Assembly: GCF_030540835.1 (NCBI RefSeq)
Contig: NZ_JAUOEK010000045.1
Coordinates: forward strand, 1-64,000
Direction of reading: 5' to 3'
Length of the DNA: 64,000 bases
From: Flavivirga aquimarina
GTDB taxonomy: Bacteria; Bacteroidota; Bacteroidia; Flavobacteriales; Flavobacteriaceae
In this document: positions 15,905 to 36,001 of the stretch, one piece after another
Layout: every line of letters starts with the position of its first letter
Numbering within the stretch: position 1 is the stretch's first letter
The notes under the pieces: model-generated
Seen by the model: only the letters and a program-made list of their open reading frames with translations
Databases searched by the model: none
Told to the model about the DNA's origin: nothing
Program-made: the position numbers and the translations under genes

Positions 15905-18493
15905 TTATTCTACAAGTAATTTTATTGTTTTATAACCTGTTTGTCCATTACTTATTTTACAAAAGTATAGTCCTGTAACTAGATTATTTTTGTCCAATTG
16001 TATTTGATTATTACCTTTTTCGGCCTCAAAGTCAACTTGTTTTACAAGCCCACCCAATTGATTGTACACCAATAATGTAACCGTTTCTGCTTCTTGTACT
16101 GTAAAATTAACTTTAGTACTAGATTTCATCGGATTAGGAATAGCAACAGGATCATTGAATGCTCCTTCGCTATTCAAGTTTTCTGCAGTCGACTCATTGC
16201 TTGTTGAAAAGCGAAGTTGCTGTAAAGTCATAGCTTTAGTTTCTTCTTCTCCATTTTCGGCCAACATAGTAAATACTATAGATGTGATATCATCCACTTC
16301 AAAATCACCACCATTGATTGATGTAAATTCGGTAAACGGGATGCTATAATCCTGTAATTTATCGGCCAATACGATACTAGTTTTGTACTGTTCTTCCCAA
16401 TTGCTTACACCTTCCTTAACCAATCTTATAATTAAAGTTCCTGTTCCTTTTCCTTTTAACTGTAAGCTTTTATAGTCAGAAAAATCTATTGGGCTAAACT
16501 TTGGCGTTAAAGATCTATAAGTTGCAATGTAATCGCTAGTGGTAGCTACTAGTTCTATATTTCTTTCAATAGGATATTCATTATCACTAAATTGAGCTTC
16601 ATTTGGTTCTACGATATAGCTACTAACTATAGTGCTCTCCCCTGCATCATCGTAGCCCCATGAACCATCCGACATAAACAAATCATCTGGAGTTTGTATG
16701 CCATCTCCTATTCTAAAACCGATATCGAACAGGCTACCAGCATCAACTTCTACATTGGTAATATAACTACCATCTAAGCTCAATGTAGACGATATATTCT
16801 CTATAGCATTAGTTTCTGTAGCTCTTAATCCGCCTTCAAAATTAACAGCTTCGCTCTTATTGGTATTTATAATTTGTAATTCCAGCTTACCGTAGCGGTA
16901 TTTTCCTTTCTTAACAAATACCGTAGGAGGTGCCGAGCTATTATAATTGCTTACTGGTTTTTGAATATCTAATAACCTTACTACTTCTTCTCCAAGTAGT
17001 AATAGATCGTCTAATGAATTAGACCATATTTGGAAATTATAGTATGGTACGTTGCTTTCATATTTATCTAAATTCCAATGACTTTCTATATCGAAGTTGT
17101 TATCTCCATTAACTGGTTTGGCTGATAAACTGAGTACAAATTCCACAGAACCATCAATATTTCTAATTAAAGCTTTTATAAAACTATGCTCTTTTATTTC
17201 TATGGTTGATACCGAAAGTAACTCTGCTCCCAATAATCTGTCACAAATATATTTAGTATGCTCGTAAACACCTTCATCTGTTTTAAGAACCATTATTGTA
17301 GATATAGCATTATCTGATTTCATGTAATCTACAGAGTAAATTTCTGTTGCATTGGTAATATTTAATAGATCGGTTGGAGACGATTCTATCACATAGTCTT
17401 CTCCTATGATTTCTACTGGCACAAAATCTGATAGTTGCAATTCTTCTTTACCTGTTTTTTTACCATATTTTGCTGATTTTACCAGTCGTTTTGCTGATGT
17501 TTTATCAAACTTATAATTATTCTTTGCTCTATTAAAGTTTCGCTTATTGATTAGCTCGGAAAGTCTGTTGTTACTCTCTAAACCACCTTCATTTCCACTT
17601 GAAGTTGGAACTTCTATAACTGGACAGGAAGCATACCCTGAACATGAAGGGTCTTCACAATCTACCAAGCCATCACCATCATCATCAATACCATTAATAC
17701 AATCTTCTTGAGGTACTGGTGCTGTGGGACAACGTGCTCCATCATTTTGAGAACTGGAAGGTCCAAAAGCAAACAAATTGGAATCCATAGCATTTGTACC
17801 GTCTAAATCTTGTACATTTTGAATCACATAAATGGTTCCCGTTTGGTTTGCAGATACATAAAAACGCCCTGATGCATCAAAATAAACTGCGCCATAAGTA
17901 TAATTTAAACCAGATAGAATAGGAACTTCTCCCAAATTTTCTATGGTGTCTGTATCTGTATCTATACGGTATAATATGTTTGTTTTCTTTTCTACAGTGT
18001 ATAATTTACCATCTACGGCGTTAAACGCCCAATCATGGATACTTAAACTGAGTGGTAAATTTTTTGTAGCAATATGACCTCCGTAATTCTCAGAATCTGG
18101 ATTTACATCTACGGTATAATAGGTTTGACCTCCTCCTTTTAGGTAATAAACACCCTGAGAACTTACATCACCAATGTATCGTCCACTTGTAGGCAGCTCA
18201 TCTACATAAAAAATTAGAGTTGAAAAATCTTTTCCTATTCTAACTATAGATTTAGACGGATAACTTAACGAGCCCCATATATATCCATCTGCTGGATTGT
18301 ATGCAGCTGCATTAATTGACCCTTCTGTAACATCGGTAGCTACTTCATAAGAATTTCCAGATGCTAAATCTATAGCATAAACATCGTTGTACTGGAATAA
18401 ATAGGCATTATAATCGCAATTAAATGGTTCGTCTTGTGCGCAAATACGCAAAACAAGGAGAAAAGCAAGCATTAAAAGTAGGTTTTTTTTCAT
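15905..18493 (-). CDS. T9SS-secreted protein, propeller-like head
   Basis: An 862-aa secreted protein. The start at 18493 (MKKNLLLMLAFLLVLRICAQ, signal peptide) is preferred to the in-frame ATG 18 codons upstream. Residues about 22-265 are a beta-rich, propeller-like region (DUF6923-like: AAYNPADGYIWGS, FNAVDGKLYTVEKKTNILYRID). About 275-300 is a Ca-binding-like CINGIDDDGDGLVDCEDPSC motif. From NEGGLESNNRLSELINKRNF on, a long module of about 500 residues is shared with the next gene. The C-terminus is a T9SS type A sorting domain (AIPNPMKSSTKVNFTVQEAE, ending KTIKLLVE). Probably exported through T9SS and attached to or released from the cell surface. Its promoter carries three phased CGAATGG-type repeats. 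Confidence 0.82.
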   Translation of the reverse strand: MKKNLLLMLAFLLVLRICAQDEPFNCDYNAYLFQYNDVYAIDLASGNSYEVATDVTEGSINAAAYNPADGYIWGSLSYPSKSIVRIGKDFSTLIFYVDELPTSGRYIGDVSSQGVYYLKGGGQTYYTVDVNPDSENYGGHIATKNLPLSLSIHDWAFNAVDGKLYTVEKKTNILYRIDTDTDTIENLGEVPILSGLNYTYGAVYFDASGRFYVSANQTGTIYVIQNVQDLDGTNAMDSNLFAFGPSSSQNDGARCPTAPVPQEDCINGIDDDGDGLVDCEDPSCSGYASCPVIEVPTSSGNEGGLESNNRLSELINKRNFNRAKNNYKFDKTSAKRLVKSAKYGKKTGKEELQLSDFVPVEIIGEDYVIESSPTDLLNITNATEIYSVDYMKSDNAISTIMVLKTDEGVYEHTKYICDRLLGAELLSVSTIEIKEHSFIKALIRNIDGSVEFVLSLSAKPVNGDNNFDIESHWNLDKYESNVPYYNFQIWSNSLDDLLLLGEEVVRLLDIQKPVSNYNSSAPPTVFVKKGKYRYGKLELQIINTNKSEAVNFEGGLRATETNAIENISSTLSLDGSYITNVEVDAGSLFDIGFRIGDGIQTPDDLFMSDGSWGYDDAGESTIVSSYIVEPNEAQFSDNEYPIERNIELVATTSDYIATYRSLTPKFSPIDFSDYKSLQLKGKGTGTLIIRLVKEGVSNWEEQYKTSIVLADKLQDYSIPFTEFTSINGGDFEVDDITSIVFTMLAENGEEETKAMTLQQLRFSTSNESTAENLNSEGAFNDPVAIPNPMKSSTKVNFTVQEAETVTLLVYNQLGGLVKQVDFEAEKGNNQIQLDKNNLVTGLYFCKISNGQTGYKTIKLLVE

Positions 18494-18513: not shown

Positions 18514-18603
18514 CAAATTTAAATAAATATAGTTTCTGTTCTTTCAATTTTCGATGAATGCAAAAAATGTGTCGTCGAATGGTTTAATTTTATCGTTGAA
18601 TCG
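18514..18603 (-). promoter_or_regulatory. Promoter with three 21-bp-phased LytTR-type sites (T9SS gene 1)
   Basis: A -7-like TAAATTTG (minus strand, 18521-18514) precedes the ATG at 18493. Upstream lie three 11-mers at exact 21-bp steps: TCGATGAATGC (18551-18561), TCGTCGAATGG (18572-18582) and TCGTTGAATCG (18593-18603), written on the plus strand. Read in the direction of transcription the best copy is CCATTCGACGA. The two distal sites have the same distance to the -7 element as the sites at 28187-28218. Confidence 0.65.
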
Positions 18604-18651: not shown

Positions 18652-21081
18652 TTACTCAATCAAAAAAGTACCGGAATGATATGTTCTTAAATCATCTAAT
18701 ATCAAATATTTATAAACCCCTTTTGATAAATTCGGTGCGTTATAAACTGCTTTTTTATTATTGGTTTTGATGTGTTGTAAGTCTACTGTTCTACCCAACA
18801 TATCTATCACTTTAATGTCTATAAACTCAGACACATTTGTCAGTTTTATAGTTGTATTTATTTTAAATGGATTCGGATAATTTTGTAACGTCATGTTTTT
18901 TGAAACGTCCTCTTCTAAACTTAAAGACGCAGCTTTAGCAAAGGCTAAATCATTAATTGATATTTCAAAAGGTATATAGTTTACATAATCTCCTATAATA
19001 GAAAACACAACTGTTTTAATATTATCCAATGTACCGGGGTTTCCATTGGCATCAACAAAATCGTTAAAAGACAAACTATGGAACGTTTCTGTCTGATTGG
19101 CTGAAATTGAATATCGCAAACGGTTATTCCAATCGGTTAATTCTTCTGGCATCAAAACAATTTCTACGTCTTGGTTACTCAATATATTGAATTGAATAAT
19201 GTTGAAATTTGAGACATCTAAAGTTAGATCTCCAGGTAGTAAATGTCTAAAAACATTCACATTCCCTTTCACTTGACCAGAAACCGTAGGCTGTCTTTCA
19301 ACTTCATATAAATCATCGTTATAATCTATACTTTCATTATCTACGTGGAAATCCTCTATAGATACATACTCTTCTAAAAAATCTATTCCCCATGGTCCAT
19401 CTGCTAAGTACATCGCATCTATTTGCTCAGATTCGTTTGTAGATAATGAGAATCCTATATCAAATAAAGCACCTATTTCTATACTAAGGGTTTCTGTATA
19501 ATTACCGCTTAATGATATTGTTTTAATTAGGCTATTAATATCTGCAACTTCTGTTTCTTTTATATTGCCTTTAAAAGTCATTTGCTTTGATGCAGACCTA
19601 TTAACGATATCTAAATGAACATTGCCATTTGTATAGTAACCGGATTTAACAAAAACCGACGGCAATTTATCTTCTGTCAAATCACTATGTAAGCCCTTTT
19701 GATTTGAATATGTATCTAAAACATGATTGGCTATAGCGAATACCTGAGAAAAGGAACTTCCCCAAATTTGAAAGTTATTATAATCACCTTCTGGATACTG
19801 TGCTATATTCCAAAAACTGTATAACTGATTGTGGTCTTCACCCAATTTAATAGAAAAACTTAATGTATATTCTATCTCACCGGTAGCTCTTTTTATTTTT
19901 GAACTAATAATATTATGTCCTTTAACTGTTACTGTTCTAATGTCTTCTAAGCTTGAATTATTAAGCCTGTCGCAAATAACTTTAGAATGATCGTAAACAA
20001 CACCTTCTGTTTTGGTTGCTAAAGCTGCAGATACACGCTTATTATCCTGATAAACATCAATTGAGAATACTTCCTTGGCATTGGTAATCTCCAATAAGTC
20101 TTCTGGACTGGATACATACGCCGTTTCTGTTCCGTACATTCCTGTATCTGGCAAATAATTCTCTAAAGTGTTCGCTTCGCCTTTTTTTGTTTTTCCTTTT
20201 GAATATGTCTTTTGAAGCCCTTTTTTATCTAGTGTTTTCCCTAGTTTTTTACGTCTAAAATTACGTTTTGCTATTAAACTTGCTAAGTCACCGTTACTTT
20301 CTAAACCGCCATTATTGGCAGAAGTCACATCTGTGGCACTGCTTACATCTGCAAAGTTTGTACTCCTCATGGCTTCGTAAGGGTTTGCTGTAACGTAAAA
20401 TATCGCATCGTTGAAGTCGTTATCGCAAGAACCATAATCACGTCTAATATCTTCAAACCCTAGAATAACACGCTCATTATCAGGATCATTAAGCAGCACA
20501 TTGTGGAATCTTAAATCTGAATTTGCTTCTGGGTTATAATCAGGGTTAGAAAATAACTGCCAATGCCCATTCCCTACACTACTGGTGCTCGAATTCCATG
20601 CGTTAGCTAAAAGTACCCAACCTATACCGGTTCCTGCTTCAAATGTTCCAATTTTAACTTTATCTCCAACTTGTAATCCACCACCACTACCCAATGCTGA
20701 AGCATTAGGAAAAATAATAGTAATATCTTCTGGTTGTGGTTTTGTACTGGATGGATTATCAATATCATACGTATAAAACCCCAATACGTTTCTATACCCT
20801 GCACCTTCGCTAACAAAAGTCACCCATACATCGGCAGGGGCATCAAGAATAACATCGGTATCATATCCTGATGAAATATAGTGCGGATTGTAATCTGGAA
20901 CAGGATAGCTCTCTGGTAAAGAATTGCTAATCATTTCCTGAGTCTCTACAGAAACAATATCTCCAGGGTTTTCTAAATAAAGAGGTGTTCCGTTTGATGT
21001 ATAAGCTCCTAAATAGTTATAATTCTGTGCAATCATTGCACTCGTGAATAATATGCTAAATAATAGTAGATGTTTTTTCAT
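18652..21081 (-). CDS. T9SS-secreted protein, DUF4114 head
   Basis: An 809-aa secreted protein. Signal peptide MKKHLLLFSILFTSAMIAQ. Residues about 60-235 are a DUF4114 domain with the hallmark GFEDIRRDYGSCDNDFNDAIFYV. From NNGGLESNGDLASLIAKRNF onward the sequence is paralogous to the neighbouring secreted protein (shared ICDRLNN/ICDRLLG, NFQIWGSS/NFQIWSNS, PSVFVKSGYY/PTVFVKKGKY and LFDIGFSL/LFDIGFRI). The C-terminus is a T9SS type A sorting domain (LQNYPNPFKINTTIKL, ending SGTFLIE). Function unknown; surface adhesion or matrix binding is a guess. It lies directly downstream of the LytTR regulator gene but has its own promoter region. Confidence 0.82.
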   Translation of the reverse strand: MKKHLLLFSILFTSAMIAQNYNYLGAYTSNGTPLYLENPGDIVSVETQEMISNSLPESYPVPDYNPHYISSGYDTDVILDAPADVWVTFVSEGAGYRNVLGFYTYDIDNPSSTKPQPEDITIIFPNASALGSGGGLQVGDKVKIGTFEAGTGIGWVLLANAWNSSTSSVGNGHWQLFSNPDYNPEANSDLRFHNVLLNDPDNERVILGFEDIRRDYGSCDNDFNDAIFYVTANPYEAMRSTNFADVSSATDVTSANNGGLESNGDLASLIAKRNFRRKKLGKTLDKKGLQKTYSKGKTKKGEANTLENYLPDTGMYGTETAYVSSPEDLLEITNAKEVFSIDVYQDNKRVSAALATKTEGVVYDHSKVICDRLNNSSLEDIRTVTVKGHNIISSKIKRATGEIEYTLSFSIKLGEDHNQLYSFWNIAQYPEGDYNNFQIWGSSFSQVFAIANHVLDTYSNQKGLHSDLTEDKLPSVFVKSGYYTNGNVHLDIVNRSASKQMTFKGNIKETEVADINSLIKTISLSGNYTETLSIEIGALFDIGFSLSTNESEQIDAMYLADGPWGIDFLEEYVSIEDFHVDNESIDYNDDLYEVERQPTVSGQVKGNVNVFRHLLPGDLTLDVSNFNIIQFNILSNQDVEIVLMPEELTDWNNRLRYSISANQTETFHSLSFNDFVDANGNPGTLDNIKTVVFSIIGDYVNYIPFEISINDLAFAKAASLSLEEDVSKNMTLQNYPNPFKINTTIKLTNVSEFIDIKVIDMLGRTVDLQHIKTNNKKAVYNAPNLSKGVYKYLILDDLRTYHSGTFLIE

Positions 21082-21101: not shown

Positions 21102-21191
21102 TAAATCTACTTATATAATCTACTGGATATCTTTATTTTCGGTAGATGAAAATGAAGTGTAGATGAGTGGGGTTTTAAGTTCGTTTAATAT
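21102..21191 (-). promoter_or_regulatory. Promoter with phased LytTR-type sites (T9SS gene 2)
   Basis: A -7-like TAGATTTA (minus strand, 21109-21102) lies 21 bp before the ATG at 21081. Sites on the plus strand: TAGATGAGTGG (21160-21170) and, 21 bp further, TCGTTTAATAT (21181-21191, weak second half). An extra TAGATGAAAAT at 21143-21153 is spaced 17 bp. The first two have the same offsets from the -7 element (55 and 76 bp) as in the other two promoters. Confidence 0.5.
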
Positions 21192-21302: not shown

Positions 21303-22016
21303 TTAAAGTAAATTCAAGCGCTTCATTAATTCCGGTCTATTTGAACGGCTTACTGGAATAACGTCTTTTTTAATAAGTACACTGTTATCTTCTATATCTA
21401 TAATTTTTTTGGTGTTAATTATGTAAGATCGATGTACTTTTAAAAAAAGACTGTCTGGTAGTTTTTCTTCTATTTTTTTTAATGTAGAATGCACCGTATA
21501 ATTTTGGTTTTCGGTTTTTACATGAATGTAATCTCCTTTGGCTTCAACTAGATATATACTTGATATATCTAACTTTATTAAGCGTCTGTCAATATTGATA
21601 TACAAATCATTACCTGAATCTGTTTCAACTGCTTTTGGTGATGTATTATTTGTAGTTTGCTTTACCTTGGTCAATTCTGCTTTCTGAATTGCCTTTTCAA
21701 AACGGGGCAATCTTATAGGCTTTATTAAATAATCTACAATACAATCATACTCAAATGCTTCTATAGCAAATTTAGAATCGGAAGTTGTTAATATAATTTT
21801 TGGTGGATTTTTTAAACTTTGAATAAAATCAAACCCGGTAAAATCCGGCATATGAATATCTAAAAAAATTAAATCGACATCATTTTGATTTAAATATTTC
21901 ATAGCTAGAATAGCATTAGGAAATTCTTCCAAAACATTCAAACTGGGCAGATTTGAACACAATTGTGCTATAATCGTTCTAGCCGTAGCTTCGTCATCTA
22001 TAATGATACAGTTCAT
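21303..22016 (-). CDS. LytTR-family response regulator
   Basis: A 237-aa regulator. The N-terminal receiver (about 1-120) has acidic residues DDE (7-9), phospho-acceptor Asp53 in FLDIHMPDF, a conserved Thr in LTTSD and Lys in LIKPI. The C-terminal LytTR DNA-binding domain (about 140-237) has LVEAKGDYIHVKT, LKKIEEKLPDSLFLKVHRSYIINTKKI and IPVSR. LytTR proteins such as AlgR and AgrA bind pairs of about 9-bp direct repeats one or two helical turns apart. It is last in a four-gene operon after FIST, kinase and Hpt. It is the obvious output of the relay and the best candidate to bind the 21-bp-phased sites. Confidence 0.92.
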   Translation of the reverse strand: MNCIIIDDEATARTIIAQLCSNLPSLNVLEEFPNAILAMKYLNQNDVDLIFLDIHMPDFTGFDFIQSLKNPPKIILTTSDSKFAIEAFEYDCIVDYLIKPIRLPRFEKAIQKAELTKVKQTTNNTSPKAVETDSGNDLYINIDRRLIKLDISSIYLVEAKGDYIHVKTENQNYTVHSTLKKIEEKLPDSLFLKVHRSYIINTKKIIDIEDNSVLIKKDVIPVSRSNRPELMKRLNLL

Positions 22017-22025
22017 GAAGTAATA

Positions 22026-22343
22026 TTATATGGTCGCTAAAAAGTCTGTTATAACTTTTAATATATTCTGAAAGTCTTCTTTGCCTAAATCTTTATTCTC
22101 TTTTAAATTGTTTTCGTAATCTGTGGCTATTTTATAACTTTCTTCAAGCCCTAAAATAGTAATTTTATGTTTAAGTTTGTGTACATTTTCTGAAGCTTTT
22201 TTAAAATTGTTAGCTGCTATGTTTTGTAGGTATACGTCTTTTTCATTTGGAAACTCTGTTTTAATAATACCAATTAGCTTATTTTTAAAAGCTTCATCTT
22301 CTCCAGAAAGTGTATCTATATATGAAAAATTGGGCTGTTCCAT
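22026..22343 (-). CDS. Histidine phosphotransfer (Hpt) protein
   Basis: A 105-aa helical protein whose core ASENVHKLKHKITILGL matches the Hpt signature HxLKg; the phospho-acceptor is predicted to be His55. It ends 10 bp before the LytTR regulator gene and starts 3 bp after the kinase gene. An Hpt passes phosphate between two receivers. It therefore implies a receiver upstream of it (no hybrid kinase is present; the stand-alone receiver at 27695-28108 is a candidate) and the LytTR receiver downstream. Confidence 0.85.
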   Translation of the reverse strand: MEQPNFSYIDTLSGEDEAFKNKLIGIIKTEFPNEKDVYLQNIAANNFKKASENVHKLKHKITILGLEESYKIATDYENNLKENKDLGKEDFQNILKVITDFLATI

Positions 22344-22345
22344 AT

Positions 22346-23395
22346 TTACTTTTTTATTGTGAAATAAAACGTAGTACCTTTTCCAACTTCAGATTCAACC
22401 CAAATTTTGCCTTTAAACAGATCTATAATTTTCTTTACTATGGATAAGCCAATCCCTGTTGAATCTGCATGGTCATTTTCCAGCTTTTCAAAGGTTTTAA
22501 ATATTTTTTTGTGATAACTCTCTTCTATTCCTTTTCCATTATCTTCTATGCTAAACTGCCAATACTCTTCCAATTCAAGAGCTTCAACTTTTATTCTACC
22601 CTTTTCTTTGTCATTGTACTTAATAGCATTATCGATAAAGTTTTGGAATAATTGCTGTAACCTGTACTTATCTCCTCTAACTGTAGGTAATTTGCCTATA
22701 TCAATTACAAAACCTTCTGGCAAAGTAATAATACTTAATACATCTTTAAGTATAACATTTAAATCTACATCATAAATTTCAATTTGAGTTTTTCCAATAG
22801 TCGAATACTCTAAAATACCACTTATTAAAGCATCCATCTTTTCTACATTACTTCTTATTAACTCTAAATTCCCTTTTCCTTGTTCGTCCAGTTGGTCTTC
22901 ATAATCTCCCTTTAACCATGTTGTTAATGCATCAATACTACGTAGCGGGGATTTTAAATCGTGAGATACCATATGTGCATAATCACTTAATTCCTGATTT
23001 TGATATGCCAACTCTTCCAAGAGTTTTTCTCTTTGTTTGTTTATTTCTACAATCTCTTTGGTTTGATTATCTATAAATTCCACCAATTTTAAACCATCAA
23101 ATTCTGAATTATCTGTACCATTGCCTCCTTCTAAATCATAAAACTTGAGTGTATCGATAACACTTTTAAGTTTATTAATCACATCTTGTTGTGCTTCCGA
23201 TTCTTGTTGCAGTTTTCTATTGGCTTGAAACAATTCCTCTGAGCTAATAGTCATGGATCGTTGGAGCATAATAAACTGTTCATCGAAATTATTGTACGAT
23301 TTATTTATAGCATCAACAAAACCATCCAGTTCTATTTCACTTACCTGGTTTTCGTTTAAATATTTACGAATTTGTCTTTTAAGTAGTGTATTCAT
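22346..23395 (-). CDS. Soluble sensor histidine kinase coupled to FIST protein
   Basis: A 349-aa kinase without membrane segments. An N-terminal helical/coiled-coil region (about 1-135) is followed by HisKA with His145 in HMVSHDLKSPLRS and a HATPase domain (NFIDNAIKYNDKEKG, FSIEDNGKGIEE, GIGLSIVKKIIDLFKGKIWVESEVGKGTTFYF). It has no sensory domain of its own. Its ATG overlaps the stop codon of the FIST gene (TAATG), so the two proteins are probably made together and FIST supplies the input. Its transmitter is very similar to that of the H-NOX-linked kinase at 25018-27120. Confidence 0.9.
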   Translation of the reverse strand: MNTLLKRQIRKYLNENQVSEIELDGFVDAINKSYNNFDEQFIMLQRSMTISSEELFQANRKLQQESEAQQDVINKLKSVIDTLKFYDLEGGNGTDNSEFDGLKLVEFIDNQTKEIVEINKQREKLLEELAYQNQELSDYAHMVSHDLKSPLRSIDALTTWLKGDYEDQLDEQGKGNLELIRSNVEKMDALISGILEYSTIGKTQIEIYDVDLNVILKDVLSIITLPEGFVIDIGKLPTVRGDKYRLQQLFQNFIDNAIKYNDKEKGRIKVEALELEEYWQFSIEDNGKGIEESYHKKIFKTFEKLENDHADSTGIGLSIVKKIIDLFKGKIWVESEVGKGTTFYFTIKK

Positions 23396-24528
23396 TATTC
23401 ACTTATTAAAGTTATCGCCATTGTTTGATTATGTAATTGACATGAAACATACCCATGAAAAGGTGCTATTTCTCCATAAGAATAAAAACCAGATATGGTT
23501 GTGTTCTTACCTATAACTTCTATAACCTCTTCTACTTCTTCCTCAACACGTTGGTCCAGCACCAGTTTTCTACCAATACAACTTACTAACAGAGCTAATT
23601 CTGGTTTGGTCTTTCTAAACTCTAAAGCTTGTCTTGCAGCGCGTTCTGATGCATTTGCAATATTATCTACATTAGTCATCATTAATTGCACTTTATCATT
23701 TTCTGAAATATCTCCGGCCAGAATCATTGTATTATCTTCTTCATTTATATTTAAAATAGTACGTACTATTGATTCTTTTCCATCTGTAGCTTTTACATTT
23801 AAAGGGTATAATAATGCTGCTGCTGGTAGATCTTTAGACTTATCTCCCAAATATTTTTTATATAAATCTAATGCCGGTTGGTTGTCTAGTTCATACAATA
23901 CATTAGACTTAGATTTTGTAACAACACGCTCTGGTCCAAAAGGGGTCCAACCACCATAAATAGAAAATGATGCTTCAATTGTTTCTCCATAAAAACCAAT
24001 AGCTACTATTTCGCCAGATTTCGGATTTTCGTTATACGATGCAACTGTTTTTTCAAAACGTGCAGCATCTCCACATAATCCTCCTGTTATTAAAAGGTTC
24101 TCACTAGTTGCAGAACCCATCCCTTTAGTAAGCTCGCTTCCATTAACAAAACTGCCTTCAGAAACTACAAAAACAAATTTTAAATCTTCAGTCGGAAACT
24201 GTTTAATAAGCTCGTTTCCAGTTTTAAAACTATCCAAATCTGAAGTTAAAATATTACTTGTTTTTATTAAAAAATGGCTTTTTTCAAATTCTATTGCAGT
24301 AATGGTTATGCAATTGTCATCTACAGATTCTCCTGTAATGTCTCCACTTGTAGATCCAAATACTAAATGACCATCAGGAAATAAATCTCTAATTTCATCA
24401 AATACTGTAGGTTCTTCTAACATAAAACGGTTTCCGAAAATTAAAACTAAAGGGTTCGCTAAATCTAGCTTCTCACTAAGATATTGCCACTCTTGATTTT
24501 TATGCTTTTTTAATTGTATTATTTTCAT
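23395..24528 (-). CDS. FIST-domain sensor protein (NosP family candidate)
   Basis: A 377-aa cytoplasmic protein with FIST_N (LVLIFGNRFMLEEPTVFDEIRDLFPDGHLVFGSTSGDITGESVDDNCITITAIEF) followed by FIST_C (LYKKYLGDKSKDLPAAALLYPLNV to FYSYGEIAP). FIST proteins are ligand sensors. Those encoded beside histidine kinases (NosP with NahK in Pseudomonas) bind haem and sense NO. The tight coupling to a kinase and the nearby H-NOX operon point to the same role, but haem binding cannot be read with confidence from sequence. First gene of the FIST-kinase-Hpt-LytTR operon. Confidence 0.85.
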   Translation of the reverse strand: MKIIQLKKHKNQEWQYLSEKLDLANPLVLIFGNRFMLEEPTVFDEIRDLFPDGHLVFGSTSGDITGESVDDNCITITAIEFEKSHFLIKTSNILTSDLDSFKTGNELIKQFPTEDLKFVFVVSEGSFVNGSELTKGMGSATSENLLITGGLCGDAARFEKTVASYNENPKSGEIVAIGFYGETIEASFSIYGGWTPFGPERVVTKSKSNVLYELDNQPALDLYKKYLGDKSKDLPAAALLYPLNVKATDGKESIVRTILNINEEDNTMILAGDISENDKVQLMMTNVDNIANASERAARQALEFRKTKPELALLVSCIGRKLVLDQRVEEEVEEVIEVIGKNTTISGFYSYGEIAPFHGYVSCQLHNQTMAITLISE

Positions 24529-25017
24529 ACCTATTTCCTTTTTATTATTACTTTTTTATAAAAAATTGTACTTAATTTCGTTGTTATTTTAATATTGCAA
24601 TAAACATAAGTGCATTTCATCACGTTTTTTAAACACTTCAACGAATGTAATACTTTTTTTAATATTTTCTAAAAAATGTAGGAAAAAATTTCTTTAAAGT
24701 AATGTCAATACTTACTAATATAAAAAGAAAATATATTTTAATTTATTGATTATCAATAAATTAAATAACACAAATTAATAATAAACTAGTAATTTTAAAT
24801 CTTTATGTTTTTTGCCTTTATATTCTAATATTTACTTGAAAACAATAAATACAAATAAGATTTTACTTACAAAAATTAATATGAAGGTTTTAGGACTTAT
24901 TAAGAATAGCTGTAGTTTAAACATTTACACTAATTGTTAACTGGTAAACACAAATGAAGTACGTTTAATAATTGCCAGAATAACAACTATAACTATATGA
25001 ATAAAAAGGAATAACGA
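24529..25017. other. Gene-free region upstream of FIST operon
   Basis: 489 bp of very A+T-rich DNA between the PAS/GAF kinase stop and the FIST start; no ORF with a recognisable product. It must contain the FIST-operon promoter. One half-match to the LytTR-type element, TCAACGAATGT, occurs at 24638-24648, 110 bp before the start. It has no 21-bp partner and no -7 element at the expected distance. Confidence 0.6.
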
Positions 25018-27120
25018 TTACTTGGTGCCCGTTTTACTTTTGTATAGTGTAAAATAAAAGGTTGTTTCTTTACCTGGAACACTGTCTACCCAAATACTTC
25101 CTTGGTATAAATCGACAATTTTTTTAACTATGGACAAACCAACTCCTGTAGATTCCTTATTTACATTAAGCGACTGAAATATTTTGAAGATTTTATCGTG
25201 GTATTCTTTTTCTATGCCAATCCCATTATCTTTTATTGAAAATTGATAATATGATTTTTGTTCTATAACATCTATTTCAATAAGCCCTTTTTCTTTATCA
25301 TTAAATTTTACGGCATTACTAATTAAATTTTGAAATAATTGTTGGAGTTTGACCTTGTCTCCGTAAACTGTAGGCAATGGATTTAATATTTTAACAGTAA
25401 TATGTTCTGGTACAAACAATATTTGTTTTAAATCTTCTAAAAGTACATTTAAATCTGTGGTTTGTTCTTCATTCGTATCTGCTCCAACACTCGAATATAA
25501 TAGGACATCTGAAATAAGCTGTTCCATTTTTTCCAAAGTGGATTCTATTAATTCAAAATTTTGTAAACTGGTTTCATCTAATTTCCCCTTAGTATCTTCT
25601 TTAATCCAACTAACCAATGCATTGATACTACGTAATGGTGATTTTAAATCATGGGATACAATATGTGCATATTCTTGAAGCTCTTCATTACTTTTTTCTA
25701 ATTCATTTAAAAGATCTTTATTTCTGGACTCTGCCTTTTGTCGCTCTCTTAAATTGATCGCACTTTTAAGTTGCATAACTACTAAATTTGCAATACTATG
25801 AAGTGTGTGTAAATGTTCTTTTGAATAATAGTTTTTCTTATTGTATTCGGAATCTATAACGCCAATGACATGTCCATCACTAATAATAGGCACTGCAATT
25901 TTTGATAGTCCTTTTTTATCTTTAACAACATACCTATCGTCTAACTCTGTATTATTAACTATTTCTGCTTTTCCGGTTTTTGCGACCGATCCTACAACGC
26001 CTTCTCCTTTAGAAAATGTAACTTTATTATTATTATTTGTCTTTTTACCATAAGTTGCGATTTGCTCCAGAATATCACTCTTCTGGTCTACTAAATAAAT
26101 ACTGCATCTATCTGTATTTAAATATTTGGCTATTTTATTAGTTATTTCCAAGGCCAATTCATGAATATCCATTTTACCAAGTATGGCTTTGGCAACATCG
26201 TTGATCATGTCTATAATCAATGAATTTTCTCGTTCGGAAGTAACATCCTCGATAAGTGCTACATGAAATCTGATTTTTCCCGATTTATACCTCACTGCAT
26301 TTACATTGGTCTTGGTCCAAAGTACAGAGCCATCTTTCTTTTTATATCGTTTAGATATGGCAAAATCTTCTATTTCACCAGAGTTCATTTTCTTTAAATA
26401 CGCTTTAGACTCAGAGAAATCTTCTTTAAAAGAAATATCTTTAATAGTTAGTTTGGACAGTTCTTCTTCTGTATAACCTAATAATTTTTGTATGGCTTCA
26501 TTTGTCCTAACTATATTATCATCTTTAATTAGTACGATACCTAAAGATGAGTTTTCTACTATAACATCTAATTCTTTCTTTTGTTCTTCTATAAGTTCTG
26601 CGGTACGCTTAGACTCTGTTATGTCTCTTATTATACCTTGTGCTCCAACGGGCATTTTTAATTTATTATAGATAACACTGGCATTAATATGCACCCATTT
26701 AACAACTTTAGTCTTTGTTATAATTCGGGCTGTATAGTCTGTAAAAACACCTTTTTCTTGTAATTTTCCAAACGACTTAAATGCATATTTAGCATCTGGT
26801 TTGTATATAACATCTACAATATTGAATCTTTCTTTATTGAGGTCATACTCAAAAAGATCTATGGCAATATCATTCATTTTTAAGGCATTACCATTTAAGT
26901 CTATTATTATATAAGCATCATTAATATTTTCGAAAACACCTTCAAGTTCTGATGTTTTTTCTTCTAAAAGCTGTTCTAATTGACCGTTTGCACCTTTTAA
27001 TTCCTCTGTAAGGTTATAAAGTTGCAAAGACTTATCTTCCAAGATTTTCTCAGCCTGTTTTCTAGCTGCTTTCTCTCGGGCAAGTGCACGTTCTATTATA
27101 TTAATGCCGCTTTTAATCAT
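25018..27120 (-). CDS. PAS-PAS-GAF sensor histidine kinase coupled to H-NOX
   Basis: A 700-aa soluble kinase. Coiled-coil about 8-60; PAS 1 about 60-170 (DAYIIIDLNGNALKMND, ending IIRDITESKR); PAS 2 about 182-297; GAF about 305-455 (LNTDRCSIYLVDQ, KGEGVVGSVAKTGKAEIVNN, DSEYNKKNYYSKEH). A second coiled-coil leads into HisKA with His490 (VSHDLKSPLRS), then HATPase (NLISNAVKFNDKEKG, IKDNGIGIEKEY, GVGLSIVKKIV). Its ATG overlaps the H-NOX stop (TAATG), implying co-translation and probably regulation by H-NOX. There is no receiver domain, so phosphate must go to a separate receiver. Confidence 0.9.
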   Translation of the reverse strand: MIKSGINIIERALAREKAARKQAEKILEDKSLQLYNLTEELKGANGQLEQLLEEKTSELEGVFENINDAYIIIDLNGNALKMNDIAIDLFEYDLNKERFNIVDVIYKPDAKYAFKSFGKLQEKGVFTDYTARIITKTKVVKWVHINASVIYNKLKMPVGAQGIIRDITESKRTAELIEEQKKELDVIVENSSLGIVLIKDDNIVRTNEAIQKLLGYTEEELSKLTIKDISFKEDFSESKAYLKKMNSGEIEDFAISKRYKKKDGSVLWTKTNVNAVRYKSGKIRFHVALIEDVTSERENSLIIDMINDVAKAILGKMDIHELALEITNKIAKYLNTDRCSIYLVDQKSDILEQIATYGKKTNNNNKVTFSKGEGVVGSVAKTGKAEIVNNTELDDRYVVKDKKGLSKIAVPIISDGHVIGVIDSEYNKKNYYSKEHLHTLHSIANLVVMQLKSAINLRERQKAESRNKDLLNELEKSNEELQEYAHIVSHDLKSPLRSINALVSWIKEDTKGKLDETSLQNFELIESTLEKMEQLISDVLLYSSVGADTNEEQTTDLNVLLEDLKQILFVPEHITVKILNPLPTVYGDKVKLQQLFQNLISNAVKFNDKEKGLIEIDVIEQKSYYQFSIKDNGIGIEKEYHDKIFKIFQSLNVNKESTGVGLSIVKKIVDLYQGSIWVDSVPGKETTFYFTLYKSKTGTK

Positions 27121-27659
27121 TAGTTTTTATTAATAATAAACATAACTTCTGTTCCGTCCTCTCTTATTTTTTCAATCTTAATTGTTGCTTTAGAATTAAA
27201 ATGCTCAAATGTTTTATTCATTAACCCCAAACCAAAATGATGCATCGCTCTACTTGATTTATAAATCATGACAAGCGAATTTTCTGTTTTTTCAATAACA
27301 TCAAAGGTTGGTAATTCAGCATCTGGGTATATCTTTCTTACCTCTACATGTATATGGTTTTCTATGGACGATAACATCTCTATAGGATCTTTATATGTAT
27401 CTAAAAGCCCAGGGTAACTTTCTTTTAAAACACTAAAAAAATGCTCAGCATAAATTAATAACAAATCATCAATTGATATACTGGTATTGGCGCTTAAATG
27501 TTGAAGTAGTTGTAACATTTCTGAAAACTTGTAAGTTCCTACTGCTGTATAAATGCCACCGGATTCTAAATCGGATTGATTAATAATGTCATCAACCATT
27601 TCCAGTCCAAACTTTTGTTCAACTAAATCTAAAAACTCTGTAAAAACAATACCTTTCAT
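27120..27659 (-). CDS. H-NOX haem-NO-binding protein
   Basis: A 179-aa H-NOX (HNOB) domain protein (MKGIVFTEFLDLVEQKFG...). Haem-contact residues are visible. The proximal His is predicted as His104 in NHIHVEVRKIYPDAELPTF, 13 residues before Pro117, the same spacing as His to Pro in sGC and Thermoanaerobacter H-NOX. The YxSxR haem-propionate motif is Tyr133-Ser135-Arg137 (YKSSR). H-NOX proteins bind NO, and O2 only in some families. The stand-alone form beside a kinase controls kinase activity in Shewanella and Vibrio. Middle gene of the receiver/H-NOX/kinase operon. Confidence 0.92.
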   Translation of the reverse strand: MKGIVFTEFLDLVEQKFGLEMVDDIINQSDLESGGIYTAVGTYKFSEMLQLLQHLSANTSISIDDLLLIYAEHFFSVLKESYPGLLDTYKDPIEMLSSIENHIHVEVRKIYPDAELPTFDVIEKTENSLVMIYKSSRAMHHFGLGLMNKTFEHFNSKATIKIEKIREDGTEVMFIINKN

Positions 27660-27694
27660 ATTTATACTTTAATATATTATCTAATGGACTTTGT

Positions 27695-28108
27695 TTAAGC
27701 TTTTATTAATTCGTTAATACTCCAATAATCGAGTAGTTTTTCAATCTTCGTTATATAATCTTCATATTTTAAAGGTTTTAAAATATAACCGGCTATACCA
27801 ATTTTATAACATTCTAATAAATCTTTTTGATTGCTAGAAGTTGTTAGGATTATTGTTGGTATATACTTCATCCTTTCATCATTTTTTAAAATAGATAAGA
27901 ATTCTATACCATTAATCTTAGGCATATTTAAATCTAATAAAATAATATCAGGTAGCCTATCTTTTAATTCTAAAACCTTAAGTGCTTCTTCACCATTATT
28001 GGCTTCGGTAATTTTATGTGTCAATTGTAGCGATGAAATTGCTCTATTTAATTTCATCACCTCTATCATATCATCTTCTATAAGAAGAATATTTAAATTA
28101 GTTTTCAT
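27695..28108 (-). CDS. Single-domain receiver (CheY/Rcp1-like)
   Basis: A 137-aa stand-alone receiver with no output domain. It has acidic pocket EDD (11-13), phospho-acceptor Asp59 in DIILLDLNMPKINGIEFL, a TTSS region and ILKPL with the conserved Lys. The start at 28108 (MKTNLNILLIEDD) is preferred over the in-frame ATG at 28141, which adds an atypical 11-residue leader. First gene of the H-NOX operon. Such a receiver is the intermediate expected between the non-hybrid kinases and the Hpt protein at 22026-22343. Confidence 0.88.
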   Translation of the reverse strand: MKTNLNILLIEDDMIEVMKLNRAISSLQLTHKITEANNGEEALKVLELKDRLPDIILLDLNMPKINGIEFLSILKNDERMKYIPTIILTTSSNQKDLLECYKIGIAGYILKPLKYEDYITKIEKLLDYWSINELIKA

Positions 28109-28127: not shown

Positions 28128-28219
28128 GAAAGATAGAACAATGTCGTAAATTATATTTTTTGATTTCGTTTGACTAAAAATAAGTGTAGACGAATGGTAA
28201 TTAAGTGTAGACGAATGGT
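28128..28219 (-). promoter_or_regulatory. Promoter with perfect 21-bp-phased operator (receiver/H-NOX operon)
   Basis: TAAGTGTAGACGAATGGT occurs twice without a mismatch (28181-28198 and 28202-28219; period 21). Read toward the gene this is ACCATTCGTC twice, two helical turns apart. A -7-like TATCTTTC (28135-28128, minus strand) lies 20 bp before the ATG, with no good -33 TTG, which suits an activator-dependent promoter. CCATTCGTC differs by one base from the AlgR (LytTR) site CCGTTCGTC. Confidence 0.75.
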
Positions 28220-28312: not shown

Positions 28313-29743
28313 TTATTTAACCAAAACTTTCTTTTCGAAACTACTTTTTGGTGCTTCGCAAAGTGAACATTCGTAAGTTTCAGAAAGACTATCAAAAGGT
28401 GTATTAGGAACTATATTTTGAGTAATATCTCCATATGCTTCATTGTATATGGTTAAACACTCAGAACATTGATATACTTCTTCTTCAGCGGCTTCTTTAT
28501 TAATAATACCAGTAGTTTCCTCTTCGCGTTCTGTTCCTAATTGTTCAAAATACAACTGACTAAGTTCCATTAATAAGCCCGGTAATTCGACCTTATCAAC
28601 ATCCTGAACATGCATGATATACTCTCTTGTATTAGGGTCGAAGTTTTTGGCGTATAATAAATTGTAAGTATCTCTAATTTTAAAATCACCAATAGCTTCA
28701 GGCTGTCTGTTTTTTTCGACCACAATGGAAGTAAAATTATAGGTATCGCTATCGTAACTTGTAATACCAAACGTTAAGCCATAAGTACTAATATCGTTTT
28801 GGTCGAAATTGGTAACTAAATACTTTTTTAAGCTCAATGCTTCTTTATCATTCACTGGCACATGCCAATTCATTTCAAGCATAGAATGGCGCACGTTTAT
28901 ACCGAATTTACCTAAAAACTTTTCCCATATTAATTTTGAATGTAGCGGTATTCCTTTAACTATAAAGGATTTCCATGGGGTAATTGATATTTTACCAATT
29001 TTATTTTCCGAGCATAAATCGCACATGGCTTTTAAAAAGGGTATATCGTATCTGTTGTTTCTCCAATATAGTCCCAACCAGTATCGATCTGGGCCTATAC
29101 GGTTCATACCTTCATAGTACGGAAAAGGGTAAAAAGGCACTTCTAAAGGCTTATCTACGGTTCTGTTATTGGTATCTACAGCGTCACTTACTAAATCGAA
29201 AACTGTTTCAATATTTTCTGGTTCTTCTATTAAAATATTTTCAATGGCCAGCTCAATTTTATCCATATCCCAACTGTAAATTAAAGCAGGATACATTTCT
29301 GTGTTTTTCCAACCTGGTAATCTCAAGTACAAATACCAATAATCTTCATGTTCTGAAGCAATAAAATTCACATTCCCTGTAAATAAAGGAACTAAACGTT
29401 GCTTAGGGTCTATAACATTAATTCTTAGCTTCGGACTACGTTTAAACTGCTCTAAAACATACAAATATTTGTCACTTGTTAACCATGAGGTACTCGGTAA
29501 AATTTCTGCCGAAACATACGACGATGCTATATTCTCTACACCATCTCTTTTTGGTTTTACAAATTGAATTTTATTAAATTGTTCAAACTTAGTGTCATCA
29601 ATTTTTTCTGGAAAAATAATATCTTGTCTAGAACCAAAAGAAATAGCGTCTAAGCCCAATTTTTCTGCAGCTTCACAAATATATTTTAATTCTCCCGGCG
29701 ATAATACACCTCCGCTTATTCTTAATCTATATCGTTCGTCCAT
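28313..29743 (-). CDS. NIR/SIR half-domain protein with C-terminal rubredoxin
   Basis: A 476-aa protein linked to nitrate reductase. The N-terminus (RISGGVLSPGELKYICEAAEKLGLDAISFGSRQDIIF) resembles the nitrite/sulfite reductase ferredoxin-like half domain, and a second similar half follows (about 210-400). No CxxxxxC...CxxxC siroheme/4Fe-4S motif is present; only CDLC is seen near residue 242. The C-terminus (about 420-470) is rubredoxin-like, with YQCSECLTIYNEAYGD and YECSLCEAPKSSF, giving two CxxC iron ligands. I infer an electron-transfer partner for the adjacent nitrate reductase, since the gene begins 1 bp after the nasA stop. It is not an active siroheme reductase. Confidence 0.75.
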   Translation of the reverse strand: MDERYRLRISGGVLSPGELKYICEAAEKLGLDAISFGSRQDIIFPEKIDDTKFEQFNKIQFVKPKRDGVENIASSYVSAEILPSTSWLTSDKYLYVLEQFKRSPKLRINVIDPKQRLVPLFTGNVNFIASEHEDYWYLYLRLPGWKNTEMYPALIYSWDMDKIELAIENILIEEPENIETVFDLVSDAVDTNNRTVDKPLEVPFYPFPYYEGMNRIGPDRYWLGLYWRNNRYDIPFLKAMCDLCSENKIGKISITPWKSFIVKGIPLHSKLIWEKFLGKFGINVRHSMLEMNWHVPVNDKEALSLKKYLVTNFDQNDISTYGLTFGITSYDSDTYNFTSIVVEKNRQPEAIGDFKIRDTYNLLYAKNFDPNTREYIMHVQDVDKVELPGLLMELSQLYFEQLGTEREEETTGIINKEAAEEEVYQCSECLTIYNEAYGDITQNIVPNTPFDSLSETYECSLCEAPKSSFEKKVLVK

Positions 29744-29744
29744 A

Positions 29745-32700
29745 TTATGCTAGTACTTTTGAATTTAGAAGTATTTCCCTAACTTCAGTTTTACAACTTC
29801 CGCAACCTAAACCTGCTCCGGTTTTATTACACAATTCGGTAAAATCTGTACAACCTTTTGCTATGGCTTCTTCAATGTTCCCTTCGCCTACTTGACTACA
29901 CGAGCACACTAATTTACCTAAAACCGGTGTATCGTTTGATGAACCACGAAGTAATGTATTTCGCTTATCGGCCATTTCAATTTTACTTTCAATCATGGTT
30001 TTAAATTCTGCGAATTCATTTTTATCGCCCATTAAAACCGCGCCTATAAGTAAGTCGTCTTTTACGATACATTTTTTATAGTAGCGTTTAGATATATCTG
30101 TAAAAATAACTTCCTCGTAACTATGGTCATTTTCCGGAACTTCAATATCTCCTATACTACATAAATTAAGGTCGTTAAACTTTAAAATATTCATGAGTAC
30201 AGATCCGTTGTAAGCACAACTTATATCACCTGCTATAAAATTAGCTAAAATACCTGCTTGCTCTTCTGCTGCTGATGTAATTCCGAATAATTGATTATTA
30301 TACTCTGCAATCTCACCTATAGCAAAAATATCGGGATGTGAGGATTGTAAATGCTGATTTACCTTAACGCCTCTACTACAATCTATACCATTTTCTTTTG
30401 CTATTTCAATGTTAGGAATGGTTCCTATGGCATAAACAATAGCATTGGCTGTGATGAGTTTACCACTCTTCAAATTGATATTTAATTCGCCTGTATCTTC
30501 ATCATTAAACACCGTACTAACTTCATTATCAAAATAAATTTGAATACCACGTTCCTGTACATCTAATGCCAATAATTTACTCGAAATTTTATCTAATTGG
30601 CGTTCCATTAATCTTGAAGCACGTTGTACTATGGTGATTTTTACATTTTTGTGCTTCATGGCTGCTGCCAACTCTAATCCCAATAAACCACCACCAACAA
30701 TGACTACATGCTGTTCTTCTGGTGGTAAACCTGTTGCATCTAGATATTTTTTAAACTTATCGGCATCGTTTTTATTCCGCATGGTAAACCTGCCCGGAAG
30801 ATCTATTTGTACATCTTTTGGAATAAATGCACGGCTTCCTGTAGCCATGATTAATTTATCAAATGTATGCTGAACACCATTTTTATCGGTAGCAATTTTA
30901 TTTTCCTTGTCTATTTTAGAAATAGAGTTTTCCGGATGTAAAACAATGTTTAACTTATCTAGTTCTGTTTGCTTTATTTTAAGTAATTGCTCCCATGATA
31001 GTTCTTCGGTAACATATTCTGGTAATAAAACGCGATTATAAAATAAGTTGGGCTCTTTTGAGAACACATGAATTTCATCTTTTTCGTTGTAATCCCTATA
31101 ATTTTGAATGAACCTAAACGATGCTGCTCCTGCTCCAACGATAATAATTTTTTCGTTAACCTTTTTATATTTTGAAACAGAAACTTTGGTAAATTTAAAA
31201 TCCGGTTCTTTAGAGATAGGATCTACAAGTGTATTGGTTAAATTGTTAGCCCTGTTTAAATCACTTTGAAGTTGTTTACCCCAATGCATCGGTAAAAACA
31301 CCACACCTTTCTTAATAGCATCGGTAACCTTGGCCCTAACACGAACTATACCATTTTCACTTTTAATCTCCGTAATAGCACCGTCCTTGACCTTATATAA
31401 GTAAGCATCAACCGGATTAATTTCTAAAACTGGTGTTGGGTAATGTGTTTTTAAACGGGATACTTTACCCGTTTTTGTCATGGTATGCCATTGATCGCGT
31501 ACTCTTCCTGTTGTAAGGATTAAAGGGTAATCGCCATTTGGCTGAATTGAAGTGTTTTTTATATGTGTGGGTAAATTAAATATCGCTTTTCCTGAAGGCG
31601 TGTAAAACTTTTTATCTTGGAAAAGTCGTTTTGTCCCAGAGTGTCTATGTTCTGGTACTGGCCACTGAAACGTACCTTCATTTTTTAGTCTATCGTAATT
31701 TAAAAAAGATACATCAATATTAGTGCCTTTAGTCATTGATGTATATTCACTATAAATCTCTTCTGCACTATTATAATTAAAGCCTCTAAAGCCCATACGC
31801 TGTGCAAAATCACAAAGTATATCTACATCTGGTCTTGCTTCTCCGGGAGCATCAATTTCTTTTGGTAAGTATGATATTCTTCGTTCAGAATTTGTCATAG
31901 TACCTTCCTTTTCTAACCAGCCTGCCGCTGGTAATACCAAATCTGCATACTCTAGAGTATCTGATTTATGCGAAATATCCTGAACCACAACAAACTTAGA
32001 GTTTTTCATGGCCTTTTCAATACGATGTGTATTTGGCATACTAACCAATGGGTTAGTACAAACAATCCAAACGGCTTTTAATTTTCCACTATCAAGTGCA
32101 TCAAACATTTCGGTAGCGGTAAAACCTGGTTTTGGAGATATTCTATCAACTCCCCAAAATTGGGCTACTTCTCGCCTATGTTCTTCATTCATCAAATCTT
32201 TATGAACCGCTAATAGATTGGCCATACCTCCTACTTCTCTACCTCCCATCGCATTGGGTTGTCCTGTAAGCGAAAAAGGCCCCGATCCTGGTTTTCCAAC
32301 CTGACCTGTAATTAACGATAAGTTTAAGAGAGCTACATTCTTATCGGTACCAACCACACTTTGGTTAAGCCCCATAGCCCACATACTTATAAAGCCTTTT
32401 GAAAGCCCTATAATATCGGCTGCTTTTCTTATGTCTTTCTCAGAAACTCCACATATTTTTGAGGCTTCTTTTAAAGAAGTTTTAAAAATTAAATCTTTAT
32501 AATCCTGAAAACCTTCTGTATGTTTTTTAATAAAACTTTCGTCAATTAATCCACGTTTATATAAACATCTACCAATAGCGTTATACAGTATTACATCGGT
32601 ACCTGGTAGTAATTGTAAATGTAAATCTGCAAAGTTTGCAGTATCTGTTTTTCTTGGGTCTACTACTATAATTTGAGTATCCGGATTTTCTTCTTTATGC

Positions 32701-33266: not shown

Positions 33267-33391
33267 TCAGACTAACATTTTACACTAAATAATACATTTT
33301 ATTTACAGAAAACAAATGCTAACTTCATTATTCTGAATACCTTAAAAAAGGTACTTTTTATTTGAAATTTAATAAAAATCAGTATCTAAAA

Positions 33392-34819: not shown

Positions 34820-34841
34820 AATTAAGTACTTTTATACGTAC

Positions 34842-34867
34842 AAAATTAAGTAATTATACTTAATTTT
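34842..34867 (-). promoter_or_regulatory. Perfect inverted repeat upstream of narK
   Basis: AAAATTAAGTA (34842-34852), spacer ATTA, TACTTAATTTT (34857-34867): 11-bp arms with no mismatch. A nearby ATACGTA (34834-34840) and another TACGTA (34879-34884) add to it. The same TAAGTA/TACTTA vocabulary recurs upstream of the NarL-type regulator gene and of nirB. A NarL-type operator is the natural guess. Confidence 0.55.
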
Positions 34868-35072
34868 AAAACGTAAAAATACGTAATTTCAAAAAAAATA
34901 TCAGATTGATAATTATGGAATAGGGATTTTGAGGATTTGGTAAAAAAGAGGAAGAATTGAACAGAAAATTAAGCTTTAAATAATTGGAAGTAGTCCAAAC
35001 TTTTAGTCAACGATCACTTACCCTTCATCTTAAGTCTTGACTTTTTATTTCTCTATAGCTGTTGCTACTCTA

Positions 35073-35233: not shown

Positions 35234-35282
35234 AAAATGTGTTTTTTTAGTTTTTCTATGAAGTCGAGAAATTAGTTGCAAA

Positions 35283-35942: not shown

Positions 35943-35953
35943 TTTACTAATTT

Positions 35954-36001
35954 AAATAAGTATGACAAAAATAATAAATTATTACGTAATTATACTTATT
36001 T
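35954..36001 (-). promoter_or_regulatory. Inverted TAAGTAT/ATACTTA pair upstream of regulator gene
   Basis: AAATAAGTAT (35954-35963) and ATACTTATTT (35992-36001) are perfect inverted arms 28 bp apart. The adjoining TTACGTAATTATACTTA repeats the wording of the narK upstream palindrome. Confidence 0.45.

Follow-up and report, generated by a model that had tools for sequence, protein, structure and literature searches.

Bacterial control of biofilm by nitric oxide (NO) has been worked out largely via cyclic di-GMP (c-di-GMP). The system considered here is a seven-gene cluster on the minus strand at 21303-28108 of a 64,000-nucleotide stretch of Flavivirga aquimarina (NZ_JAUOEK010000045.1, positions 1 to 64,000; hereafter the window), in which genes for an H-NOX protein and a FIST protein, the latter carrying the domain of the NO sensor NosP, lie with genes for two histidine kinases (HK1 and HK2), a stand-alone receiver (RR), a predicted Hpt phosphotransfer protein and a LytTR response regulator. 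Its closest described counterparts include those of Vibrio, where H-NOX or NosP acts via hybrid kinases, the Hpt protein LuxU and the transcription factor LuxO (PMC6769237, PMC8738867). As proposed for the flavobacterial module, the Vibrio H-NOX-HqsK and NosP-VpsS pathways lead from a haem NO sensor through a kinase and an Hpt protein to a transcription factor, and LuxU is the Hpt for H-NOX and NosP kinases alike, in different species; however, the Vibrio kinases are hybrid with built-in receivers, the relay is that of quorum sensing, the output runs through small RNAs, and the available parts of the two papers describe no operon shared by both sensors. The first-pass annotation of the window held that proteobacterial NO relays end in c-di-GMP enzymes, a generalisation to which the LuxO pathways of Vibrio are an exception.

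In Shewanella oneidensis, NosP reportedly joins the hno network. That network is similar in having an H-NOX kinase and several response regulators, one of which (HnoC) is a transcription factor with its own regulon, but its main output is c-di-GMP turnover and an Hpt-LytTR step is not described in the available text (PMC8738867). The Hnox2-Lpg2458-Lpg2457 system of Legionella pneumophila likewise combines H-NOX, a kinase and a CheY-like stand-alone receiver in one operon, although this has only three genes, its downstream signal is unknown and nosP lies in another operon (PMC11237717). In the proteobacterial NosP-NosK-NosR systems a FIST protein adjoins a kinase without a sensor domain, as here, but there the pathway leads to a c-di-GMP protein, of HD-GYP or another type, and the FIST protein of the window is only a distant relative of NosP (PMC12570481). 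In a literature search, mostly of open-access journals and thus not proof of absence, none of the titles or abstract openings among the matches listed dealt with an operon of H-NOX and FIST, with H-NOX and LytTR together, or with such an operon in Bacteroidetes.

Gene order and distribution of the operon

The module is generally one operon, RR–H-NOX–HK1–(FIST–HK2)–Hpt–LytTR, in which FIST-HK2 is an optional cassette. In the window its parts are as follows.

27695..28108, minus strand: stand-alone receiver RR (PF00072, E 1e-22), with Asp59
27120..27659, minus strand: H-NOX, predicted haem/NO sensor (PF07700, E 6e-40)
25018..27120, minus strand: HK1, a PAS-PAS-GAF-HisKA-HATPase kinase (Pfam), joined to the H-NOX gene by a TAATG overlap
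24529..25017, no strand: HK1-FIST gap of 489 nt
23395..24528, minus strand: FIST/FIST_C protein (PF08495 and PF10442), putative NosP-like sensor
22346..23395, minus strand: HK2, a HisKA-HATPase kinase without a recognised sensor domain (Pfam)
22026..22343, minus strand: predicted Hpt phosphotransfer protein, with His55
21303..22016, minus strand: LytTR response regulator (PF00072 and PF04397), with Asp53

All seven open reading frames (ORFs) are present with the positions, strand and domains given by the first-pass annotation, the domains being recognised by Pfam in all but the Hpt. The TAATG overlap that it reported between each sensor gene and its kinase also occurs at both junctions (H-NOX/HK1 and FIST/HK2), and neither kinase contains a receiver domain, so that both are indeed non-hybrid. 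Across loci, TAATG is found at 54 of 141 H-NOX/HK1 junctions and 52 of 77 FIST/HK2 junctions.

A survey of 397 Flavobacteriaceae genomes detected H-NOX in 146, nearly always in this module, FIST in 116 and both in 93 (Fisher p 8.5e-31). The two genes are at most 20 kb apart in 75 of the 93, always on the same strand (75/75) and with H-NOX upstream in 74/75. The pairing used 107 FIST matches down to E 1.3e-33, with weaker rows left out, and the FIST genes of L108, L117, L120, L130 and L140 were added by phmmer. The co-occurrence check that had been suggested for H-NOX, FIST, Hpt and LytTR thus found a conserved combination. Spacing between H-NOX and FIST varies in steps of about 380 nt (1350, 1730, 2100 and 2500).

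Gene order was compared by fetching 147 H-NOX loci from other genomes and labelling their ORFs by similarity to the window genes. Among the 148 fetched stretches, L105 served as a FIST control and L157 and L177 lacked an H-NOX ORF, which with the window leaves 146 loci; two second H-NOX matches, in G076 (with stops) and G140 (C28), were left out. The full order RR-Hnox-HK-FIST-HK-Hpt-LytTR is present in 69/146 loci, and another 50/146 have RR-Hnox-HK-Hpt-LytTR without FIST-HK2, while the remaining 27 are variants, interrupted operons or cut by contig ends. Because those 50 loci keep both Hpt and LytTR without the FIST-HK2 pair, these two genes belong to the H-NOX core and not, as first annotated, to a FIST operon. 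FIST follows HK1 in 79 loci, with a gap of no more than 24 nt in 77 of them; the exceptions are the window (489 nt) and its congener G248 (496 nt). The description of two tandem operons therefore does not hold for the group, and the small gaps together with the locus counts identify the core as an H-NOX relay into which the FIST-HK2 cassette is placed between HK1 and Hpt. A quick tree built from 119 core operons requires at least 21 changes of cassette state, compared with at least 28 in 200 shuffles. The gap at 24529-25017 may contain a new promoter that splits the operon in the window, and in L176 (G057) the cassette slot holds a second kinase, the FIST gene being absent from the operon.

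The same organisation is seen in a named sample, the best 80 of 185 loci (22 of them already in the first set), from Algibacter, Flavivirga, Winogradskyella, Lacinutrix, Psychroserpens, Olleya, Dokdonia, Polaribacter, Kordia and others. The cassette is present in 53/80 and absent in 24/80; of the other three loci, two are cut by contig ends and in one HK1 is read as two ORFs. Six HK1 proteins of named loci (403-826 aa) have one to three PAS stretches, with GAF in some only. In a phylum sample of 247 genomes H-NOX is rare (16) and FIST commoner (58); a linked pair occurs in six, one of which (G544) is from another family of the same class. Four family genomes without an H-NOX match (G101, G225, G261 and G069) carry four-FIST clusters on one strand.

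Predicted sensors, kinases and phosphotransfer components

The window H-NOX scores 137 bits for the HNOB domain, well above the curated cut-off of 25.5, and contains the proximal histidine H102 as well as Y133, S135 and R137 of the YxSxR motif that marks haem binding in H-NOX proteins. These residues are retained almost throughout the 146 loci (His102 in 140, Tyr133 in 145, Ser135 in 145 and Arg137 in 139). Furthermore, the H-NOX of Kordia algicida OT-1 (L251), encoded in an operon with the full seven-gene order, is identical over 179/179 residues to the protein of crystal structure PDB 6BDD, which was used as "Ka H-NOX" in PMC7356049, and the module provides that protein with a biological context. 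The K. algicida H-NOX entries 6bdd and 6bde bear an aldolase molecule name, which is evidently a wrong label.

The FIST protein was first annotated as NosP. It has the FIST and FIST_C domains expected of that assignment, but scores 61 bits on the NCBIfam NosP model, below the cut-off of 450, and some cassettes encode a protein without the conserved histidine; it is best regarded as a distant relative of characterised NosP and as a putative binder of haem and NO. Of the 79 FIST loci, 74 retain His366; L108, L117, L130 and L140 have a second, divergent FIST with Phe or Tyr at this position, and L120 has a fragment. A sequence search for solved FIST structures returned none, only two chance matches (E 0.19 and 0.35). 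A second FIST gene of the window genome, 42% identical, lies on another contig (L105:9738-12598, G000:C88). The gene after it encodes a hybrid PAS-HK-receiver kinase, whose DHp was not matched by the DHp motif search, and the fetched stretch has no label for H-NOX, Hpt or LytTR.

For the relay itself, the phospho-accepting residues expected of RR, Hpt and LytTR are invariant: Asp59 in 139/139 relatives of RR, His55 in 131/131 relatives of the Hpt protein and Asp53 in 120/120 relatives of the LytTR regulator, which in the window combines a receiver with a LytTR domain. The chain of phospho-residues needed for a His-Asp-His-Asp relay is thus complete, as the first-pass annotation had it. The Hpt assignment made there, the least secure of the seven, also stands, though the protein has no Pfam or NCBIfam match: an AlphaFold2 model from an alignment of 68 relatives is a confident helical fold (pLDDT 94.6), and the PDB structures that it matches best are the Hpt domains of Shewanella and of E. 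coli BarA (TM 0.73-0.77, E 0.03-0.10, with none under E 0.001).

The HK1 and HK2 cores of the window are 57% identical. The first DHp helix after the phospho-histidine, where kinases choose their partners, is nearly alike in the two (HDLKSPLRSI-AL--WLKED; consensus HDLKSPLRSISALVSWLKED and HDLKSPLRSIDALTSWLKED). Greater likeness within than between genomes was considered as a sign of a shared partner and rejected (47.9% within and 47.7% between genomes; 72 and 150 pairs), and a recent origin of HK2 as a copy of HK1 is not supported, as the two form mostly separate groups in a quick tree. Mutual information gave its best signals for Hpt-LytTR (z 7.1), RR-Hpt (5.8) and RR-LytTR (5.4). Because coevolution did not show contact between kinase and receiver, the order RR, Hpt, LytTR is drawn from anatomy, which strongly suggests, without proving, the mechanism beyond the kinases.

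The annotation's contrast between a LytTR output and the c-di-GMP enzymes of other NO relays is supported: GGDEF proteins were found in 0/30 operon-bearing genomes, with 8/14 control genomes positive (EAL and HD-GYP were not searched), and the output position that c-di-GMP enzymes hold elsewhere is filled here by a LytTR factor.

A predicted LytTR operator and its candidate targets

Upstream of the operon are two conserved repeats, CCATTCGTC(G/T)ACACTTAA, 21 bp apart. Similar pairs precede two large genes downstream of the operon, and the features concerned in the window are listed below with their scores on R1, a model trained on 46 operon promoters.

28181..28218, minus strand: predicted LytTR operator of the operon, ACCATTCGT repeats with a 21-bp period (R1 48.2 bits)
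21141..21170, minus strand: predicted LytTR operator before the DUF4114 surface-protein gene (R1 14.7 bits)
18652..21081, minus strand: DUF4114 protein with a type IX secretion system (T9SS) sorting tail, predicted target (PF13448 and PF18962)
18551..18582, minus strand: predicted LytTR operator before the DUF6923 surface-protein gene (R1 16.2 bits)
15905..18493, minus strand: DUF6923 protein with a T9SS sorting tail, predicted target (PF21959 and PF18962 on 15905-18490; gene start 18493 taken from the translation)

The pair exceeds the 1% shuffle threshold in 126/139 operon promoters, with a spacing of exactly 21 bp in 118/126; the shuffles were first-order resamplings, not exact dinucleotide shuffles. 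In out-of-sample operon promoters, which come from relatives of the training set and are not fully independent, pair scores over 0 at 21 bp were obtained for 57/57, and the shuffle background reached this in 2/2780. The window operator has E 6.4e-14 in the window and is the best match of its own genome (E 5e-12). It is itself a training-set site, and as R1 was trained on operon promoters, matches to these in the window, its own genome and the 40+17 genome scan below are largely in-sample. The geometry fits known LytTR sites, which are 9-bp direct repeats with 10-13 bp between them, mostly upstream of -35 and activating (PMC11347149, PMC6193735): a 21-bp period leaves 12 bp between repeats. The ACCATTCGT-type paired repeats are probably the LytTR operator.

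Association with LytTR itself argues for this assignment. Operon promoters have the pair in 119/124 loci with LytTR in place, compared with 7/15 without a LytTR label, the eight that lack it being L052, L054, L057, L066, L091, L113, L173 and L174. In the first five of these, Hpt is in the operon and LytTR is not. Loss of LytTR was rejected as an explanation, since an ortholog (62-66% identical) is present elsewhere in all five genomes, with the operator 737-760 bp upstream of the moved gene. This relocation ties the operator to LytTR as a natural experiment in five genomes. Meanwhile, ten genomes without H-NOX have only LytTR paralogs, with best matches 35-42% identical. R1 matches at E 1e-3 or better were found in 35/40 operon genomes and 0/17 without H-NOX, and at E 0.05 in 39/40 and 3/17, respectively. 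The 79 matches at E 1e-3 or better comprise 33 in operon promoters, 34 others within 35 kb of the operon, five before a moved LytTR gene and seven elsewhere.

Across loci, the pair precedes the large downstream genes in 52/61 cases over threshold (20/22 loci for the DUF4114 type, with its T9SS tail, and 31/32 for the DUF6923 type). In the window genome the operon site is followed in rank by C71:62618 (E 1e-3) and C71:63635 (E 0.04), and then by the DUF6923 site (rank 4, E 0.06) and the DUF4114 site (rank 5, E 0.18); sites below these are at chance level, and the two window surface-gene sites alone would not stand out in their own genome. The C71 sites fall between the gene for a TPR protein and a pair of STAS genes, and upstream of a gene for a glycosyltransferase; the locus further encodes a receiver-GT2 fusion, a second glycosyltransferase and a polysaccharide flippase. 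By strict criteria, which replace a wider count (73/146 loci, pair in 45/68), a close homolog of the C71 TPR gene is present in the fetched operon stretch of 60/146 loci. On the basis of the surface-protein and polysaccharide sites, the predicted output of the module is surface proteins and exopolysaccharide. At L189:10240-11379, within the polysaccharide locus, a receiver domain is fused to a family-2 glycosyltransferase near two STAS proteins, where post-translational control is possible.

Proposed signalling route and alternatives

Taken as a whole, the findings are best explained by a dual NO-input module in which two sensor-kinases would feed one relay to LytTR and surface genes, a reading that is considered probable though well short of certain. 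H-NOX would control HK1 and the FIST protein HK2, and both kinases would phosphorylate the same stand-alone receiver, from which phosphate would pass to Hpt and on to LytTR in a four-step His-Asp-His-Asp relay built like Spo0. The Bacillus Spo0 relay similarly joins several kinases to a stand-alone receiver, a phosphotransferase and a transcription factor; it differs in its protein families and signals, and here the parts are in one operon. Phosphorylated LytTR is predicted to bind the paired repeats, two helical turns apart, and to activate its own operon in a feedback loop, together with the neighbouring T9SS surface-protein genes and the TPR/STAS/glycosyltransferase polysaccharide locus. 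The FIST-HK2 cassette would then be a plug-in second input between HK1 and Hpt.

The NO-bound sensors most likely inhibit their kinases, as NO-bound H-NOX does with HqsK in Vibrio (PMC6769237) and NosP with NO does with NosK (PMC12570481), in which case NO would lower surface-matrix expression. This direction is only slightly favoured over the reverse, since NosP can also activate its kinase, as it does with NahK in Legionella when NO is bound (PMC11237717).

Beyond the Legionella precedent, several observations weigh against the proposed route. A search for phosphotransfer, haem or DNA-binding data on the module as a whole found none, and no HK1-RR column pair exceeded z 5 in the mutual information analysis. 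The usual Hpt motif is HxxKG, and the glycine at His+4 is replaced by His59 in 127/131 Hpt relatives. No LytTR label was assigned in 20/146 loci. Operator and regulator also part company in places: the pair is absent in L093, L138, L162, L166 and L172, which have LytTR in place, and is kept in seven of the 15 promoters without a LytTR label, among them L125 and L128, which are cut by contig ends, and L123, which has a shorter receiver protein in the LytTR position. The other four of the seven, interrupted operons in L038, L109, L120 and L150, keep the operator without Hpt or LytTR labels, and three of the 17 genomes without H-NOX have weak R1 matches (best E 0.002). Target sites in the window genome are weak (E 0.001 to 0.18), and under the strict criteria the pair precedes the TPR gene in 45/58 loci. 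Finally, other genes of the same loci, used as a control, have the pair in 98/1146 cases; 35 of these coincide with the site of a system or target gene, which leaves 63 others, some of which may be polysaccharide genes, judged by their first residues alone. In view of these 63, an operator site alone proves little.

Direct phosphorylation of the LytTR receiver by both kinases, with RR and Hpt tuning the response by acting as a sink or drain for phosphate, would account for the invariant aspartate in the regulator's own receiver and for coevolution that does not favour HK1-RR over HK1-LytTR. It is nevertheless judged unlikely: most loci retain RR (139/146) and Hpt (131/146) alongside the rest of the operon, the strongest couplings, Hpt-LytTR and RR-Hpt, are those expected of a chain (although RR-LytTR is close behind), and stand-alone receivers are the usual partners of kinases of this HisKA type, those of LytTR factors being kinases of another type. 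Still less probable, to the point of being improbable, is a pair of separate neighbouring pathways, in which H-NOX-HK1-RR has its own output, for example protein contact via the receiver, and FIST-HK2-Hpt-LytTR alone controls transcription. The window, with its two halves separated by 489 nt, does look like two operons, but such a gap is confined to 2/79 FIST loci, and the 50/146 loci that lack FIST-HK2 have RR, H-NOX, HK1, Hpt and LytTR together.

A different question is what the FIST protein senses. If its ligand were another small molecule, the module would join NO with a second cue, an arrangement compatible with the proposed relay, so that its probability is not exclusive of that of the relay. 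The low score on the NosP model, the divergent FIST without His366 in the same slot of 4/79 FIST loci and the occurrence of FIST without H-NOX in 23/116 FIST genomes point this way. However, FIST is the known NosP domain, His366 is otherwise well kept, and a NosP kinase that has been characterised (PMC12570481) resembles HK2 in having no sensor domain and about 130 residues ahead of its DHp. A second cue is accordingly regarded as a possibility, and the less expected one.

Whether the relay with two NO inputs amounts to a c-di-GMP-free route from NO to the surface matrix that is widespread in marine Bacteroidetes, with a permanent H-NOX input, an exchangeable second sensor-kinase slot (at least two FIST types) and direct LytTR-operator control of surface and polysaccharide genes, is evenly balanced. 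Flavobacteria that live on algae and particles degrade much of the polysaccharide in the sea, and such a route, if real, shows how NO could serve them as a signal to settle on surfaces or to leave them. It would also be a natural example of one relay served by two haem sensors, and offer a ready operator-reporter with which to test it.

Immediately beyond the operon, a nitrate/nitrite assimilation cluster occupies 28313-45110 of the window. Nitrate assimilation was rejected as a partner of the operon in general, because the fetched stretch contains homologs of the cluster's first genes in only 16/146 loci. The cluster encodes a fused molybdopterin reductase-NirB-like protein, NarK, NirB, NirD, a NarQ-like kinase and a DUF4202 protein.

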